DNA of 12,422 bases, taken from the NCBI GenBank assembly GCA_021791345.1, contig JAJYWT010000215.1, positions 1-12,422 of the forward strand. Reading direction: 5' to 3'. The notes under the pieces were generated by a model. That model worked only from the letters and a program-made list of their open reading frames with translations, searched no databases and was not told where the DNA came from. Shown piece by piece: positions 1-7,590 of this stretch. The stretch's first letter is position 1. Every line of letters starts with the position of its first letter. Source of the stretch: a bacterium. Its GTDB lineage: Bacteria; Chloroflexota; Dormibacteria; UBA8260; Bog-877. A program made the position numbers and the translations under genes.

Positions 1-1899
1 GGCCGGCCCGAGCCTCCCCCGCACCGACGCGATGGCCGGCCCCGTTGGGAGGCGGCAAGGGGTCTCAGCCGCTCGGTGGCGGCTTGGACCGGCGGCCGGG
101 GCGCGCGCCGGGGGGGATCCGTCAACCGAGGCCAGCGAGCCGGCCCCACCTTGCGGCTGCAGACTGGATTCGGACTCCCGCTCTCGATGGGTCCCGGGCT
201 GAGCCGCCTGGGTAGGCTCGACGGCGTCCTGGTAGTGGAACTTCCCTCCCCGCAGCCAGGATGCGACCGCCGCGATGAGGCAGGCGATGACCGCGAAGTC
301 AAAGGCCTCGTGGAGGCCGCTCATGAAGGGCTGGGAGATCAGCGAGGAGAAGAAGGTGCGGCCGGTGAGGTAGCTGACCTTGGCCGGGGCCATGTGCACC
401 AGGACCGGGCCGAGCAGGGTCTTGACCGGGTTGTAGCCGAGGAACGCCGCGAACAGCGCCCCGGTCGGGGGGAGGTGTGAGATCTTCGCCGCCGCCGCCG
501 CGGGGACACCCTGGGTGGTGAGGCCGTGGTACAGCGCCGAGGGGAGGGAGCTGGCCAACCCGGTGATTATCAGGGTGAAGAAGATGCCGATGGACAGCAC
601 CATCGCCGAGTTCTGGAAGGTGGCGGTCATTCCCGAGCCCGCCCCCCGCTGGGTGTTGGGCAGGCTGTTCATGATGCCCGCCCGGTTCGGGGAGGCGAAC
701 AACCCCATCGCCAACCCGTTCATCAGCAGCAGCGCGGCAAAACCGGGGTATCCGAAGTCGGCCGGCAGCAGCTCGAGAAGGCCGAAGCTGAGCGCGGCTG
801 CGATCATGCCGCCGGTGGCGAACGGCCTGGCCCCGTAGTGATCCGAGAGGATCCCGGAGATGGGGCCAGCGATCAAGAAGCCGGCCGTGAGCGGCAGCAT
901 GTAGATGCCCGCCCACAAGGGGGTCTCGGCGAAGCTGTAGCCGTGCTGCGGCAGCCAGATCCCCTGCAGCCAGATGATCAGGATGAACATGATCCCGCCC
1001 CGTCCCAGGGCGGCCAGCAGGCTCGCGACGTTGCCGGCGGCGAAGGCGCGGATGCGGAACAGGGGTAGCCGGAACATTGGGTTCTCGACCTTGGTCTCGA
1101 TGTACATGAAGACCAACAGCAGCAGCACCCCCCCGCTGATCTCACCCAGCACGCTGGGGTTGGTCCAGCCCATGCTGGAGGTGCCGTAGGGCTCGATGCC
1201 GTAGGTGATCCCCACCAACAGGGAGATGAGGCCGGCAGCGAAGGTCAGGTTCCCCCACCAGTCGATCTTGGAGGCGGTCTTCACGCCCCGCTCCACCAGC
1301 TTGAAATAGGCCCAGACGGTCCCGAAGACCCCGAACGGCACCGAGACCAGGAAGACCAAGTGCCAGTCCACAGGGCCGAGGAGGCCGCCGAGAATCAGGC
1401 CGATGAAGGATCCTCCGATGGCCGCCACCTGGTTCACCCCGAGGGCCAGCCCGCGCTGATCCGGAGGGAAGGCGTCGGTGAGGATCGCGGCGGAGTTGGC
1501 GAACAGCAGCGCCCCTCCGATCCCCTGCAGGATGCGGATGCCGATCAGCCAGATGGCTCCGGCCGCCCCCTGCAGCCAGGTGATGGAGAGCAGGATCGAG
1601 AAGAAGCTGAAGACGGCGAACCCCAGGTTGTACATCCGCACCCGGCCGTACATGTCGCCCAGCCGGCCGAAGCTGACCACCAAGACCGCCGTGACCACCA
1701 TGTAGCCCATCAGCAGCCAGAGGAAGTAGCTGGTGTTGCCCGGGGTCAGCGGGTTGAGGTGGATGCCGCGGAAGATGTCGGGAAGCGCGATCAGGATGAT
1801 CGAGGAGTTGACGACCACCATCAGGGTGCCCAGCGTGGTGTTCGAGAGGGTCACCCACTTCCCCCGGTATCGGGGGTCGCCGCCCTTTGGTCTCGCCAC
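1..1899 (-). CDS. DHA2-type MFS transporter, first paralog (C-terminus beyond window)
   Basis: Predicted 14-helix proton-coupled exporter of the DHA2 (EmrB/QacA-like) branch. Reading from a GTG at 1899-1897, the frame is open for 633 codons to the left edge with no stop, so the gene is 3'-partial. TM1 begins at about residue 15 (KWVTLSNTTLG). MFS motif A is GRLGDMYGRV (78-87) and a motif-C-like glycine run follows (IGGSFIGLILGG, 161-172). The transporter ends near residue 553 (ASWLRGGK). Residues 554-633 are a polar Pro/Ala/Ser/Arg-rich tail without recognisable domain motifs. The protein is collinear with the MFS half of the 3722-6127 gene, roughly two thirds identical by eye. GTG is the only reasonable start I found before TM1; an AAGGAGGG stretch (1926-1919) lies 19 nt upstream, further than ideal. 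A second domain, as in the paralog, could lie beyond the edge. Function is by family; substrate unknown. Confidence 0.9.
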   Translation of the reverse strand, partial: MARPKGGDPRYRGKWVTLSNTTLGTLMVVVNSSIILIALPDIFRGIHLNPLTPGNTSYFLWLLMGYMVVTAVLVVSFGRLGDMYGRVRMYNLGFAVFSFFSILLSITWLQGAAGAIWLIGIRILQGIGGALLFANSAAILTDAFPPDQRGLALGVNQVAAIGGSFIGLILGGLLGPVDWHLVFLVSVPFGVFGTVWAYFKLVERGVKTASKIDWWGNLTFAAGLISLLVGITYGIEPYGTSSMGWTNPSVLGEISGGVLLLLVFMYIETKVENPMFRLPLFRIRAFAAGNVASLLAALGRGGIMFILIIWLQGIWLPQHGYSFAETPLWAGIYMLPLTAGFLIAGPISGILSDHYGARPFATGGMIAAALSFGLLELLPADFGYPGFAALLLMNGLAMGLFASPNRAGIMNSLPNTQRGAGSGMTATFQNSAMVLSIGIFFTLIITGLASSLPSALYHGLTTQGVPAAAAAKISHLPPTGALFAAFLGYNPVKTLLGPVLVHMAPAKVSYLTGRTFFSSLISQPFMSGLHEAFDFAVIACLIAAVASWLRGGKFHYQDAVEPTQAAQPGTHRERESESSLQPQGGAGSLASVDGSPPARAPAAGPSRHRAAETPCRLPTGPAIASVRGRLGPA

Positions 1900-2033: not shown

Positions 2034-2632
2034 ATGTCCAGCGATCCGGTCACAGCAGCGCTGGCAGGCGGGCCTCCGGTGGTGTTCCTCCTGACCGGGG
2101 TGCCGGCCGCCGGGAAGTCAACCGTGGCCCAGCTTTTGGCAGAGCGCTTTCCCCGCAGCGCCCATGTCCGCGGGGACATCTTCCGTCGCATGGTGGTCAG
2201 AGGCCGCGTAGAGGCGACGCCGTCGGCGGAGCCGGAGATGGCCCGGCAGCTTCGCCTGCGTCACTCCCTCGCGGCAGCCACCGCCGACGGGTACCACGCG
2301 TGCGGTTTCACCACCGGGCTGCAGGACTGCTTCCTCGAAGGCATGCTGCCGTTTGTGGTGTCGAGACTCCGGAGCCGTCCGCTGTTCGTGGTGGTGCTGG
2401 CGCCGACCGCCGACGTGGTGCGCCGCCGGGAGCAGGCCCGAGGCAAGCGCGCCTACGGAAGCTGGACCGTGGAGGATCTCGATCACCGGCTACGGGAGGG
2501 GCTCCGCACCTCGGGGTCTGGGTGGACTCGTCGGGGCAAGCCCCCGAGGAAACGGTGGAAGAGATCCTCAGGAGGAGCCACCGCGAGCCCGACGCCTTCG
2601 CGGTACCCGGTACGCCGGTGGGTGTGAGGTAG
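2034..2632 (+). CDS. P-loop kinase-like (AAA-type) ATP-binding protein, apparent frameshift near 2508-2512
   Basis: A small P-loop NTPase resembling uncharacterised zeta-toxin/chloramphenicol-phosphotransferase-like kinases. Walker A is GVPAAGKST (residues 22-30), followed by VRGDIFRR (45-52), a hydrophobic strand PLFVVVLAP (116-124) and an Arg-rich lid RRREQARGKRAYG (130-142). The ATG frame is convincing to REGLRT (159) and then becomes Ser/Arg/Pro junk ending at 2627. The -1 frame carries the expected family ending, LGVWVDSSGQAPEETVEEIL, to a TAG at 2630-2632. With one base added near 2508-2512 the gene is exactly 200 codons (199 aa plus stop). This is either a single-base deletion that inactivates the gene or a sequencing error. 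It is convergent with the GNAT gene, 35 bp apart. Phosphoacceptor unknown. Confidence 0.8.
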
Positions 2633-3252: not shown

Positions 3253-3741
3253 TCAGGTCCGAGAGCCGATGCGCTCTGCCCCCTGTTCGGACAGCTCCTC
3301 AAGGCGCTTCAGGTGCCGGGCATGCCTCTGCTCCAGCTCCAGCTTGAGCGTCATGAGGCGCTCGATGCGCTCGGTGACCAGCTGCAGCTGCCGCTCCACC
3401 ACCTCGGTCGCCTCGGTCAACACCGCCGCCTGGGCACGGGGCGATGAGCTCCGGCGGTAGGCCGCGCGCAGGCCGACCAGACGGTCCTCGGCCTGCAGGG
3501 ACTCTCGGATTTCGCAGAGCCCCGCCCCCAGGTACTCCTGCATCTCCTTGATCCGGCGAACCCGCTCGACCTCCTCTGGGGAGTAGCGCCTGCCCTGGGC
3601 AGTGGTCTCCCGGGTGTCCGGGGTGATCAGGCCGAGCTCCTCGTAGTAGCGGAGCGTGCGGGGGGTGACCCCCGTCAGCGCCGCCACCTCCCCTATCCGC
3701 AGGCCGGGGGCGGGGGATGGCTCAGACGGCGACCGGGACAC
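3253..3741 (-). CDS. MerR-family transcriptional regulator
   Basis: An N-terminal winged HTH, LRIGEVAALTGVTPRTLRYY at residues 14-33, continues through EELGLITPDTRE and RRYSPEEVERVRRI. A helix of about 50 residues (roughly 105-155, rich in Glu, Leu and Arg) forms the usual dimerisation coiled coil. There is no extra effector domain and only one cysteine (C76), so metal or redox sensing of the MerR/SoxR kind is unlikely. I chose GTG 3741-3739 (162 aa) because GGAGG (3755-3751) stands 9 nt upstream; a TTG at 3759 would add six residues. The start overlaps the end of the MFS-kinase gene by 20 bp, which suggests translational coupling. The protein is the best candidate to bind the two palindromes at 1955-1970 and 6117-6132, which would make it autoregulatory. 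Small MerR proteins of this size include LiuR- and SauR-like regulators. Confidence 0.92.
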   Translation of the reverse strand: MSRSPSEPSPAPGLRIGEVAALTGVTPRTLRYYEELGLITPDTRETTAQGRRYSPEEVERVRRIKEMQEYLGAGLCEIRESLQAEDRLVGLRAAYRRSSSPRAQAAVLTEATEVVERQLQLVTERIERLMTLKLELEQRHARHLKRLEELSEQGAERIGSRT

Positions 3742-6127
3742 GTCTGGCCACCTCCACAATCCGTGCCGCGGCCTCCTCGACCGAGACCTTGGTTGTGTCG
3801 ATCATCAGATCATAGAGTTTGGGGTCATTCCAATCGACCCCGTAAAAGTGGTGGAGGTAGGCGTGCCGGGCCTGGTCGGTGTGGCGCTGATCCCGGCGGG
3901 CGGTGCGCTCCTCGATCCCCTGCTGATCCACCACCCGGCGGATCCGGCCCTCGACAGGCCCGTCGAGCCGGACCTTGAGCACGTGGGGGTTGTGACGCAG
4001 GATCACCGTGGCCCCCCGGCCCAGAATCACGCCGCCGCGGTCGGCGAGCTTGCGGATCACGTCCTCGGTGTAGCGCCGGAAGCGGTCTCCGGAGCCATCC
4101 TGCTCCATGTCGGGGGCCGCCGTGGGGGCCATCGGTCCCAGGCCGCGGGAGAGCGCGGCGAACAGCTCGCCCACGGCGTCGTAGGTCTCGTCCTCCTGCG
4201 CGAGCACCACCTCCAGCGGCTCGGCCATCTCCGCCGCGACCTGCACCGGGATGGCCCGATCGAGAAACTCCACGTCGAGCTTGGCGGCCACCGCTCGGGC
4301 GATCGCATCCCCGCCGGCCCCGTAGCTGGCCGAGATCGCGACGGTGCGGATCGGCCCCGGAGCGGCCTCGCCAGAGGCCGGCCCGGCCAGGGCAGCCGCG
4401 CTGGAGGCTGGCGCCGAAGCGGCGGTGGTGGCGGGCGGTGCCACCTCCTCGTGGACATAGCGCTTGCCGCGCATCCAGGAAGCCGCCGCCGCGATCAGCA
4501 TCATGACCGTGGAGAAGTAGAAGGTGACCCGCATCCCGGACATGAAGGGCTTGGAGATCAGGTTCGGGAAGAACTCCCGCCCCGTGAGCGCGGCCTGCCG
4601 GGCCGCCGGCAGCCCGTGCAGCGCCGGCCCGAGCAGAGTCGCTACCGGGTTGTAGCCCAGGAACGCCGCGAACAGGGTGCCGACCGGAGGCAGGTGGGAG
4701 ATCTTGCCGGCGGCCGAGGCGGGGACTCCCTGCGCCACCAGCCCGTGGTAGAGCGACTGGGGCAGAGCGGACGCCAGGCCCAGCACCATCAGGGTGAAGA
4801 AAAGCCCGATGGAGAGCGTCATCCCGGAGTTCTGGAAGGTGGAGCGCATCCCCGAGGCGACGCCGCGCTGGCCGGCGGGGACCGAATTCATGATCCCGGC
4901 GGTGTTGGGCGCGGAGAACATGCCCATGGCGAAGCCATTGAAGAAGAGCAGGACGGCGAAGGTGGGATAGGTGAAGTTGGCCGGCAAAAGCGCCAGCAAA
5001 GCGAAGCTGACCGCCGCCGCCAGCATCCCCCCGGTGGCGAAGGGGCGCGCCCCGAAGCGGTCCGACAGATACCCGGACAGCGGTCCGGCGCAGAGGAAAC
5101 CGACCGTCAGGGGCAGCATGTAGATCGCGGCCCACAGGGGGGTCTGGACGAAGTTGTACCCGTGCAGCGGCAGCCAGATGCCCTGCAGCCAGATGATCAG
5201 CATGAACATGAGGCCGCCGCGGCCGATGGAGGCCAGCAGGGAGGCCAGGTTGCCCGCGGTGAAGGCGCGGATCCGGAACAGCGACAGGTTGAACATCGGC
5301 GCCTCCACGCGCCTTTCGATGAGCACGAAGACCCCCAGGACCACGATCCCCCCGATCACCTCGGCCAGGACGGTGGGGTTGGTCCAGCCCATGTCGCTGC
5401 TCCCGTAGGGCTGGATGCCGTAGGTGATCCCGACCAGCAGGGCGATCAGACCGACCGCGAAGGTCGCGTTGCCGAGCCAGTCGATCCTGGCGCGGCGCAC
5501 GACCCCGGTCTCCCTGAGCTTGAGGTAGGCCCAGATGGTCCCGAACGCCCCGATCGGCACCGAGACCAAGAAGACCAGGTGCCAGTCGATCCCCGACAGC
5601 AGGCCTCCCAGCACCAGCCCGATGAAGGACCCGGAGATCCCCGCCACGACGTTGATGCCGAGGGCCATGCCCCGCTGGTTGCTGGGGAAGGCGTCGGTGA
5701 GGATGGCGGCGGAGTTGGCCATCAGCAGAGCCCCACCGACCCCCTGCACGATCCGCAACCCGATCAGCACCAGAGCTGCGGTGGTGCCGCTGAAGAAGAC
5801 CAGGGAGAGCCCGATGGAGGCCAGGGTGAAGACCAGGAAGCCCAGGTTGTACATGCGCACCCGGCCGAACATGTCCCCCACCCGGCCCAGGCTCACCACC
5901 AGCACCGCGGTCACCACCATGTAACCCATCAGCATCCAGAGCAGGAGGCTGACGTTGGCCGGTGCCAGCGGGTTCACCTTGATCCCGCGGAAAATCGCCG
6001 GCAGCGAGATCAACACGATCGAGGAGTTGATCACCGCCATCAGGATCCCGAGGGTGGTGTTGGAAAGGGCCACCCACTTGTAGCGCCCGGAAACCGGGGC
6101 GGGGGTTGCAGCAGACTTTACGTTCAC
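3722..6127 (-). CDS. MFS (DHA2) transporter fused to a cytidylate-kinase-like domain
   Basis: The 801-aa protein has two parts. Residues about 17-555 are a DHA2 exporter: TM1 from KWVALSNTTLGILMAV, motif A GRVGDMFGRV (81-90), motif-C-like GISGSFIGLVLGG (163-175), last helix ending MRGKR (552-556). After an Ala/Pro linker (557-592) comes a ~210-residue domain of Cytidylate_kin2 type (593-801): strand and P-loop-like VAISASYGAGG (596-606), GGVILGRGATVIL near 700, LKVRLDG near 720, and YDLMIDTTKVSVEEAA near 775-790. With 14 helices the domain would be cytosolic. No in-frame ATG or GTG lies in the linker, so a separate kinase gene is unlikely. The start GTG 6127-6125 falls inside an operator. The gene lies 15 bp after dedA and overlaps merR. 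The P-loop lacks the Walker lysine, so catalysis is uncertain. Transport substrate unknown. Confidence 0.92.
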   Translation of the reverse strand: MNVKSAATPAPVSGRYKWVALSNTTLGILMAVINSSIVLISLPAIFRGIKVNPLAPANVSLLLWMLMGYMVVTAVLVVSLGRVGDMFGRVRMYNLGFLVFTLASIGLSLVFFSGTTAALVLIGLRIVQGVGGALLMANSAAILTDAFPSNQRGMALGINVVAGISGSFIGLVLGGLLSGIDWHLVFLVSVPIGAFGTIWAYLKLRETGVVRRARIDWLGNATFAVGLIALLVGITYGIQPYGSSDMGWTNPTVLAEVIGGIVVLGVFVLIERRVEAPMFNLSLFRIRAFTAGNLASLLASIGRGGLMFMLIIWLQGIWLPLHGYNFVQTPLWAAIYMLPLTVGFLCAGPLSGYLSDRFGARPFATGGMLAAAVSFALLALLPANFTYPTFAVLLFFNGFAMGMFSAPNTAGIMNSVPAGQRGVASGMRSTFQNSGMTLSIGLFFTLMVLGLASALPQSLYHGLVAQGVPASAAGKISHLPPVGTLFAAFLGYNPVATLLGPALHGLPAARQAALTGREFFPNLISKPFMSGMRVTFYFSTVMMLIAAAASWMRGKRYVHEEVAPPATTAASAPASSAAALAGPASGEAAPGPIRTVAISASYGAGGDAIARAVAAKLDVEFLDRAIPVQVAAEMAEPLEVVLAQEDETYDAVGELFAALSRGLGPMAPTAAPDMEQDGSGDRFRRYTEDVIRKLADRGGVILGRGATVILRHNPHVLKVRLDGPVEGRIRRVVDQQGIEERTARRDQRHTDQARHAYLHHFYGVDWNDPKLYDLMIDTTKVSVEEAAARIVEVARRVPVAV

Positions 6128-6142: not shown

Positions 6143-6763
6143 CTACACCTCCTCCTCGGCAGCGGCCGCGGGTCGGTTGATGTAGCGCCAGACCCCGTAC
6201 AGCAGGGCCACGACCAGGAGCGCCAGGACCAGATATTCCAGGGGCTTGATCACAGCCCCGATCCGGTTGAAGTGCTTGCCCAGCTCCATCCCTGCAATCG
6301 ACAGCGAGGCGTCCCAGACGAAGGCCCCGAGCAGGGTCGCCGGGATGAACTTGACCAGGGGCATGCGGGCGAACCCCGCGGGGTAGCTGGTGTAGCTGCG
6401 CAGCACCGGCAGCACCCGGCCCACCGCCACCGCCACCACCCCGCGCCGTTCGTAGAAGCGCTCGGCGGCTTCGAAGTGACTCTCCTTGAGCCGGAACCGC
6501 TTGCCAAAGCCGACCACCGCCTGCCGCCCAACCCAGGCGGCCACCCCGTAGGCGATGAGAGCGCCGACCAGCTCCGCCAGCAGCGCCACGATGATCACCA
6601 GCGGCAGACTGAGAGTGCCGGTGGCCACCAGCACCCCCGCGAAGGGAAGCACCACCTCACTGGAGACCGGAAACCCGCAGCACTGTGCGACGGTCAGCAG
6701 GAACAGGGCCAGGTACCCCGCGGTGGTGAGGAAGCTCTCCAGGGAGTGGATCAACGCCGGCAC
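6143..6763 (-). CDS. DedA/VTT-family membrane protein
   Basis: A 206-aa polytopic inner-membrane protein with the VTT (SNARE-associated) signature: SSEVVLPFAG (34-43) in the first re-entrant region, FYERRG (103-108), GRVLPVLRSYTSYPAG (115-130) with two conserved arginines, then M134 and the helix GAFVWDASLSIAGMELG (146-162). A C-terminal helix (177-194) and a Glu-rich tail end at TAG 6145-6143. Family members are linked to undecaprenyl-phosphate or phospholipid flipping and to resistance to membrane-active drugs; its own substrate is unknown. The GTG at 6763 is used as start because no other ATG, GTG or TTG precedes it in frame near the domain; its ribosome-binding site is weak. It lies 15 bp before the MFS-kinase gene and may share its transcript, although the operator between them points to a separate internal promoter. 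Confidence 0.9.
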   Translation of the reverse strand: MPALIHSLESFLTTAGYLALFLLTVAQCCGFPVSSEVVLPFAGVLVATGTLSLPLVIIVALLAELVGALIAYGVAAWVGRQAVVGFGKRFRLKESHFEAAERFYERRGVVAVAVGRVLPVLRSYTSYPAGFARMPLVKFIPATLLGAFVWDASLSIAGMELGKHFNRIGAVIKPLEYLVLALLVVALLYGVWRYINRPAAAAEEEV

Positions 6764-6834
6764 CCCGCTCTCATCGTCGGCATTGTCGCCGATCCGCGGT
6801 GTCTCAGGCGCAGCCCAGCCGTCGTACCGGAGGC

Positions 6835-6840
6835 TACGCT
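6835..6840 (+). promoter_or_regulatory. -10 box (TACGCT) close to the start of the SCO1664-like gene
   Basis: TACGCT fits TANNNT and ends 9 nt before ATG 6850, so the transcript would be leaderless or have a leader of two or three bases. A GGAGG (6829-6833) is 16 nt from the ATG, too far to be a good ribosome-binding site. It lies in the 86-bp divergent gap shared with dedA. No clear -35 is seen. Confidence 0.35.
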
Positions 6841-6849
6841 GATCCCGTC

Positions 6850-7590
6850 ATGACCGCTCAGGATGAGGATCGCACTGTTCCCGCGGAGTCCGACACCCAG
6901 GCGACGTTGGAGCGGGCCCCCATCGCGGACCTGGCCAGGGTCGGGATCGGCAGCAACGCAGTCTTCCTGGCCACCCTGGACACCGGGGGCGAGCCGAGGC
7001 GGGCGATCTACAAGCCGGCCCGTGGCGAGCGACCGCTCTGGGACTTCCCCGCCGGCACCCTGCACCGTCGCGAGGTCGCCTCCTTCGAGGTGGACCGCGC
7101 CCTGGGGTTCGGGTTCCTGCCGGTCACGGTGCTGCGCCGAGAGGCACCCCTGGGGGTGGGTTCTCTGCAGGAGTTCGTGGAGGGCCCCGATGCCGGCCAG
7201 GAGATCGACTCAGCCGCCTTGGACACCCAGCTGCTGGGGCTCGCGACCCTGGACGTGCTGCTCAACAACGCGGACCGCAAGAGCGCCCACCTGCTGGTCG
7301 ACCGCTCCGGCCGGCTAAAGGGGATCGACCACGGGGTCACCTTTCACGTCGACTTCAAACTCAGGACCGTGCTGGCCGATCTGGGCGGAGAGGAGGTGCC
7401 GGATGCCTGGCTCCGGGCAGTGCAGCGCCTCTGGGGCGACCGTGGCGCCATGAGCCGGCTGGAGGCCACCCTCAACCGGTTGCTGGCGCCCCAGGAGGTT
7501 CGTGAGTTCGTGCTCCGCGGACGGCGCCTGCTGCGCCAACGGCACTTCCCGATCCTCCACCCGTGGTACGGCCGGCCGTTCCAGTGGTGA
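6850..7590 (+). CDS. SCO1664-like PI3/PI4-kinase-fold protein
   Basis: A 246-aa soluble protein resembling the actinobacterial SCO1664 family, a distant relative of phosphatidylinositol 3-/4-kinases. AIYKPARGERPLWDFPAGTL (52-71) holds the likely nucleotide-binding lysine K55. It is followed by HRREVASFEVDRALGFGFLP (72-91), a catalytic-loop-like LLNNADRKSAHLLVD (137-151) with D142, and a metal-site-like GIDHGVTFH (158-166) with D160. The arrangement of lysine, NxDRK.H and ID supports an ATP-dependent phosphotransfer fold; lipid-kinase activity is not implied. In many actinobacteria relatives sit beside a mycothiol ligase and a DUF3090 gene (from memory), but neither is next to this one here. 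ATG 6850 was preferred over an upstream GTG at 6799 because of the adjacent -10 box. The gene is divergent from dedA and convergent with thpR (13 bp gap). Confidence 0.82.
   Translation: MTAQDEDRTVPAESDTQATLERAPIADLARVGIGSNAVFLATLDTGGEPRRAIYKPARGERPLWDFPAGTLHRREVASFEVDRALGFGFLPVTVLRREAPLGVGSLQEFVEGPDAGQEIDSAALDTQLLGLATLDVLLNNADRKSAHLLVDRSGRLKGIDHGVTFHVDFKLRTVLADLGGEEVPDAWLRAVQRLWGDRGAMSRLEATLNRLLAPQEVREFVLRGRRLLRQRHFPILHPWYGRPFQW

Follow-up and report, generated by a model that had tools for sequence, protein, structure and literature searches.

A window of 12,422 nucleotides, the whole stretch of bacterial contig JAJYWT010000215.1 (assembly GCA_021791345.1) analysed here, carries a gene in which a major facilitator superfamily (MFS) transporter is joined in frame to a domain of the Cytidylate_kin2 family (PF13189). 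A first-pass annotation, made from the sequence alone, had described it as one uninterrupted frame of 801 codons, joining an exporter permanently to a cytidylate-kinase-like domain. The frame is indeed open throughout from a GTG start, and both parts score far above the Pfam gathering cut-offs: MFS_1 (PF07690) at residues 25–438 with 124.1 bits (cut-off 33.4), and PF13189 at residues 596–780 with 142.0 bits (cut-off 28). The same fused frame was found in independent genomes. The fusion is genuine and evolutionarily conserved. Features of the gene and its immediate neighbours are listed in Table 1.

Table 1. Positions of the fused gene, its parts and the adjoining genes in the window.
Feature	Position	Strand	Remarks
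Fused gene: MFS transporter, linker and Cytidylate_kin2 domain	3722..6127	-	801 amino acids; soil bacterium
MFS membrane part, divergent DHA2-like	4472..6088	-	residues 14–552
Ala/Pro-rich linker	4355..4450	-	residues 560–591; predicted disordered (pLDDT <50)
Cytidylate_kin2 domain (PF13189)	3740..4351	-	residues 593–796
P-loop remnant SASYGAGG	4310..4333	-	residues 599–606; Gly606 replaces the Walker A Lys
Arg624	4256..4258	-	aligns with phosphate-binding Arg41 of E. coli Cmk; 24/25 fused rows
Arg704	4016..4018	-	aligns with phosphate-binding Arg131 of E. coli Cmk; 25/25 fused rows
Asp751-x-x-Arg754	3866..3877	-	D..R motif resembling the Cmk lid; 25/25 fused rows
MerR-type regulator	3253..3741	-	start probably the GTG at 3741; overlaps the fused gene at its end; Pfam MerR_1, 70.8 bits
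DedA/VTT-domain membrane protein	6143..6763	-	upstream of the fused gene, same orientation; Pfam VTT_dom

The Ala/Pro linker reported earlier was recovered at the junction. It had been said to contain no in-frame ATG or GTG; its sole in-frame start codon is a GTG at codon 562 (window position 4444), so that the statement is off by one codon, without consequence. GAGGAG abuts this GTG directly, which is a poor spacing for a start, and the next in-frame ATG, GTG or TTG is codon 613, past the P-loop. Across residues 501–650, taken as three blocks of 50 codons, the G+C content at codon position 3 was 0.98, 0.86 and 0.92; this continuous composition across the junction gives no sign of a frameshift there. 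The window sequence may be metagenomic, which would favour an assembly or annotation artefact caused by a missing stop codon or a frameshift; the conservation of the frame in independent genomes and the continuous composition rule this out, and we assign it practically no probability. An AlphaFold model of the fused protein (m58a979ea231e), built with a 25-row alignment of fused proteins (A1), is helical up to residue 552, falls below 50 in the predicted local distance difference test (pLDDT) at residues 560–591, and shows an alpha/beta domain from residue 595.

A protein search scored on residues 588–801 returned 61 matches of suitable length, 59 of which carry both PF13189 and PF07690; one of these 59 (P0002) is nearly identical to the window protein. 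Source names among these long proteins include Candidatus Dormibacteria (P0006, P0012) and Candidatus Nanopelagicaceae (P0016). The fused relatives span diverged clades, which disposes of the possibility, raised by the first-pass annotation, that homologs always encode the two parts separately. For a full-length alignment of the pump subfamily, 80 loci from species genomes were kept out of at least 592 confirmed relatives, and the two parts are fused in frame at five of them (L001–L005). At L014 the kinase is encoded separately, with its ATG (2897–2899) overlapping the TGA of the pump gene (ATGA); this overlap is plausibly an evolutionary intermediate toward fusion. At L045 the kinase gene is adjacent to the pump and divergent from it, and at L054 a kinase fragment lies about 1.2 kb from the pump frame. 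No kinase was seen in the available flanks of the other 72 loci, some of which are cut by contig ends.

In class-wide genome searches, the best 10–28 candidates per genome were scored. The class of G003 is taken to be Dormibacteria because it includes G001, whose L001 bears the title Candidatus Dormiibacterota; of its 110 genomes, at least 51 reach E ≤1e-40 with the kinase profile, and pump and kinase share one frame in at least 15. For the class of G005 the figures were at least 13 of 296 genomes at the same threshold, at least two of them fused. At least 24 of 199 genomes in the class of G006 match at E ≤1e-10, with no in-frame fusion at the loci matched. Among six close relatives (15 pairs), the ratio of nonsynonymous to synonymous substitution rates (dN/dS) was 0.035–0.094 for the kinase part and 0.024–0.071 for the pump part; the kinase part is under purifying selection among these proteins.

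In its predicted structure, the tail domain has the CMP-kinase fold of the solved PF13189 members 3hdt and 3fdi, a fold class common to shikimate, gluconate and CMP kinases. With these stand-alone proteins it has in common the family, the fold, the replacement of the Walker A lysine by glycine, and the GR and D..R motifs; it differs from them in being joined to a membrane transporter and in belonging to the SASYGAGG clade instead of the SREYGSGG type. The description as cytidylate-kinase-like therefore holds for fold and Pfam family, while the enzymology it implies is doubtful. The Walker A lysine is glycine in 21 of 21 aligned domains, and lysine was found at this position in no row having a letter there. 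Additionally, the same 21 domains have a deletion where E. coli Cmk has Ser36 and Tyr40, and another residue in place of Asp132; the cytosine-recognising roles of these Cmk residues are described in PMC3603445 and PMC7259600. Compared with Cmk (TIGR00017, TIGR02173), the domain hence lacks both the P-loop lysine and the equivalents of Ser36, Tyr40 and Asp132, and it scored 37.0 bits with TIGR02173, below the curated cut-off of 102.1. A true cmk gene exceeded its cut-off in all 12 genomes checked, which, together with the missing CMP-specific residues, rules out a housekeeping CMP kinase.

Since it has neither the Walker A lysine nor the residues that recognise cytosine, we do not regard the tail domain as a CMP kinase; as a phosphotransferase it is probably weak or dead. 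"Dead" is a guess, since other PF13189-like domains lack the lysine as well and no activity studies were found. An unlikely but serious alternative is an active phosphotransferase domain whose P-loop works by non-canonical chemistry; it would phosphorylate the toxic compound or metabolite that the pump exports and so couple inactivation to efflux. Phosphotransferase plus efflux is a known resistance logic, and such an enzyme would agree with the small-molecule kinase fold class, with the retained phosphate-binding arginines and D..R motif, with the efflux and regulator genes among the neighbours of related kinases, and with an AAA_33/CPT (chloramphenicol phosphotransferase-like) gene beside a paralogous pump in the window. 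Against it stands the lysine: it is missing from Walker A in every row with a letter there, and the 21-row domain alignment has no lysine in any column that is invariant or nearly so. A literature search for chloramphenicol phosphotransferase with efflux and P-loop found no paper.

The membrane part had been called a full DHA2 transporter. DHA2-like it is, "full" being slightly generous: TIGR00711 (DHA2/EmrB) scored 162.5 bits, below the curated cut-off of 230.2, yet is the best NCBIfam match of the pump, and we therefore use the label "DHA2-like". It aligns (E 1.3e-29) with PDB entry 7y58, "Antiseptic resistance protein", which we take to be QacA. With the DHA2/EmrB-QacA pumps it shares MFS_1, the GRVGDMFGR motif and a similar length of the membrane part; it differs in the score below the TIGR00711 cut-off, in the additional C-terminal soluble domain, and in having Asn34 where 7y58 has an aspartate in the first transmembrane helix (TM1), Asp34, which presumably matters there. 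Asn occupies position 34 in 19 of the 25 fused rows and 65 of the 76 unfused ones, with Asp in the remainder, and Arg303 of the membrane part does not vary across the 101 subfamily rows. DHA2 proteins have 14 transmembrane helices, and both of their termini face the cytosol. The helical model of the pump part is compatible with this topology, and the sequence RGKR, which follows the final helix, points to a C-terminus in the cytosol.

Several pumps without a visible kinase domain were also seen. A paralogous pump at window positions 1–1899(-), which runs off the window, is 67.9% identical to the fused pump and has no such domain in the part seen; the pump at L033, 85% identical to this paralog, is unfused. 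Divergent from the paralog lies the small P-loop kinase gene already mentioned, at 2034–2627(+) (AAA_33 31.8 bits, CPT 23.2 bits). The unfused pumps of L016, L053 and L063, which were scanned against Pfam, carry C-terminal CarboxypepD_reg repeats, and similar tails occur at other loci of the subfamily. At L063 there is in addition a borderline MarR_2 match in the pump frame (27.3 bits, cut-off 27).

A second search found 655 shorter proteins matching at E ≤1e-3. Some of these are fragments of fused proteins, as revealed by the linker in P0063 and P0064. A kinase that is always fused is ruled out by the separate relatives. The surroundings of separate SASYGAGG-clade kinases were sampled in 40 stretches from 38 genomes. 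A pump matching the DHA2 profile was present in 20 of the 40, and in 17 it lay within 1 kb of the kinase, the gaps being measured between the profile-matched parts and not between gene ends. At two further loci (L191, L192) the profile failed to pick up an MFS_1 gene that also lies within 1 kb. All four arrangements occur: kinase then pump, pump then kinase, divergent and convergent. The 38 genomes contain at least 484 TIGR00711 matches in 133.1 Mb (up to 30 candidates scored per genome), from which about 0.6 of the 40 would be expected within 1 kb by chance, against the 17 observed; this expectation rests on approximate genome sizes and on an interval that we set at 4.2 kb (0.5–0.7 for 3.6–5 kb). 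Separate relatives of the domain thus adjoin efflux pumps far more often than chance predicts. The loci are related (L199 and L200 are nearly alike), so the counts are not independent events.

The partners are diverse. A pump invariably of the window's subfamily is ruled out, as the best NCBIfam matches vary among the linked pumps scanned (10 of 20), being tcmA-, OtrB-, SmvA/LfrA- or LmrA-like. At L188 (2117–8452), L199 (4282–10077) and L205 (180–5864) the kinase gene has an AcrB-family RND gene on one side and a DHA2 gene on the other; a MarR gene is found upstream at L188, and the pump at L199 was identified by profile only. Of 74 neighbours of linked kinases chosen, 55 were scanned, giving MarR_2 and MFS_1 five times each and ACR_tran three times. 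Beside another separate clade kinase, at L184, an MFS protein with a C-terminal Usp domain is encoded (3678–5408(-)). At other PF13189-like loci, 5 of 43 are within 1 kb of a pump, all near-identical hits (581–585 bits), and there is one weak hit at 1174 bases; these loci are therefore not a clean negative. The five (L101, L103, L104, L106, L107), from genomes of 5.4–6.0 Mb, are canonical SREYGSGG kinases directly upstream of a pump that gives the 581–585 bits with the profile of the window's subfamily.

These data bear on whether the fusion means little, a kinase gene downstream of a pump having been joined to it by chance and its domain acting independently. The coupled pair at L014 and the kinases away from pumps would fit such an event, as would a quick tree of 104 rows of our choice with many open forks, on which the fused label needs only three changes (at least two forced by starred branches). 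The fusion persists across deep clades, however, and linkage recurs in four gene arrangements with pumps of different NCBIfam models. On the same tree the linked label, with 16 rows of unknown neighbourhood omitted, needs 11 changes, and starred branches force at least eight for "adjacent". We regard a chance fusion as improbable.

Our preferred reading, held tentatively, is that a cytosolic, kinase-derived domain that binds a phospho-ligand tunes a divergent DHA2-like pump. A phospho-ligand sensor is favoured because the lysine is missing, the phosphate-binding arginines are conserved and a parallel MFS-Usp fusion exists. The DHA2-like pump would have permanently gained as a C-terminal module what elsewhere is often a separate gene beside efflux pumps. 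We infer the cytosolic placement, the ligand and the gating as follows: the domain would hang by its flexible linker at the cytosolic mouth of the pump and bind a small phosphate-bearing molecule (a nucleotide or phosphorylated compound) via Arg624, Arg704 and Asp751/Arg754, and closure of the lid on the ligand may alter pump activity. Of the three ideas in the first-pass annotation, we still rank highest the one in which the domain senses nucleotides and thereby gates the pump; modification of the cargo and its trapping by phosphorylation come after it. A wider and rather unlikely proposal is that the SASYGAGG clade of PF13189 is as a whole a partner family of efflux pumps. Its members would be kinase-derived sensors of phospho-ligands, devoid of the lysine, and would gate pumps of the DHA2 type and perhaps of the RND type; their genes would be divergent from the pump gene, in an operon with it, translationally coupled to it or fused, the window representing the end state.

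Several observations weigh against the sensor reading. Only the five fused loci among the 80 kept carry the domain in frame, and most pumps of this subfamily are without it. For 18 of the 40 separate kinases no pump was found in the available stretch (20 without a profile match less L191 and L192, with Pfam applied to the neighbours of 16 of those 20 loci), and the five loci that belong to the class of G006 are all among these 18; the domain hence also occurs apart from pumps. The loss of the lysine is not peculiar to the clade: when rows were sorted by locus number, a choice of ours, into 60 clade rows and 36 others (duplicates and rows shorter than 150 residues dropped), the others had Gly in 33 of 36 and Lys in 0 of 36. 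Asp751 and Arg754 correspond to Asp185 and Arg188 of Cmk by motif only, the alignment there being shifted by about two columns, and Asp is absent from the commonest letters in the Cmk Asp185 column. The placement of the domain in the full AlphaFold model is unreliable, as a predicted template modelling score of only 0.65 makes the relative domain positions uninformative. Over longer distances the kinase part is less tightly constrained: in the six listed pairs with the window, dN/dS was 0.15–0.43 for the kinase part and 0.07–0.17 for the pump; identities in these pairs were 57–82% and 85–93%, respectively. Finally, the motifs are eroded in two fused proteins of G004, in one of G473 and in one clade.

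This erosion, with the fusion persisting, would be expected if the domain served as a scaffold, i.e. in folding, oligomerisation or recruitment of a partner such as DedA, MerR or another pump, ligand binding being vestigial. The order DedA, pump, MerR kept at L001 and L003 would agree with this role. It is nevertheless quite unlikely: a scaffold as such gives no reason to expect that phosphate-binding Arg704 and the D..R motif should be kept without exception, as they are in all 25 fused proteins of A1. The two fused copies of G004 with eroded GR motifs are L089 and L093; contig L004 of that genome is titled Spirochaetales, which may reflect misbinning.

The first-pass annotation knew of no described example. 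Our literature searches, with preprints and most subscription journals outside their reach, likewise found neither the fusion nor a function for PF13189 described, and the passages of PMC8756737 consulted held gene-list entries unrelated to the fusion. As far as could be found, the fusion is undescribed, but transporters with attached soluble domains are already known. Permease-Usp and Na+/H+ exchanger-Usp transporters of halophilic Archaea, in which the Usp domain is a nucleotide-binding one, are reported in PMC12159084, whose reference list also names TeaD. In both systems a soluble domain is attached to or partners a transporter; the domain folds are unrelated, and Usp regulation has been studied, whereas no counterpart study for PF13189 was found.

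PF13189 proteins are annotated as "cytidylate kinase-like", with no functional study in the literature searched. The conserved link to efflux pumps provides a first testable function for the family and suggests that this annotation is misleading for the SASYGAGG clade. Gating of a secondary transporter by a phospho-ligand would, if true, amount to a kinase-derived control module of MFS efflux; to our knowledge, none has been described. Were the domain enzymatic, the pump would have an enzyme of its own attached that modifies the cargo through an unusual P-loop chemistry.

The neighbourhood of the fused gene is partly shared by its closest fused relatives. DedA homologues with 75–79% identity lie upstream in L001, L002 and L003. 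The order DedA, fused gene, MerR is common to L001 and L003. In both, the fused gene and the MerR frame overlap where the fused gene ends, and both also share the window's PI3/4-kinase-like, LigT, hydrolase and acyl-CoA dehydrogenase genes. L002, whose contig ends inside the fused gene, shares the DedA, PI3/4-kinase-like, LigT and hydrolase genes. The PI3/PI4-kinase-like gene of the window (6799–7590(+)) scored 24.3 bits, below the cut-off of 27.1, and its counterparts stand beside DedA in L001–L003.

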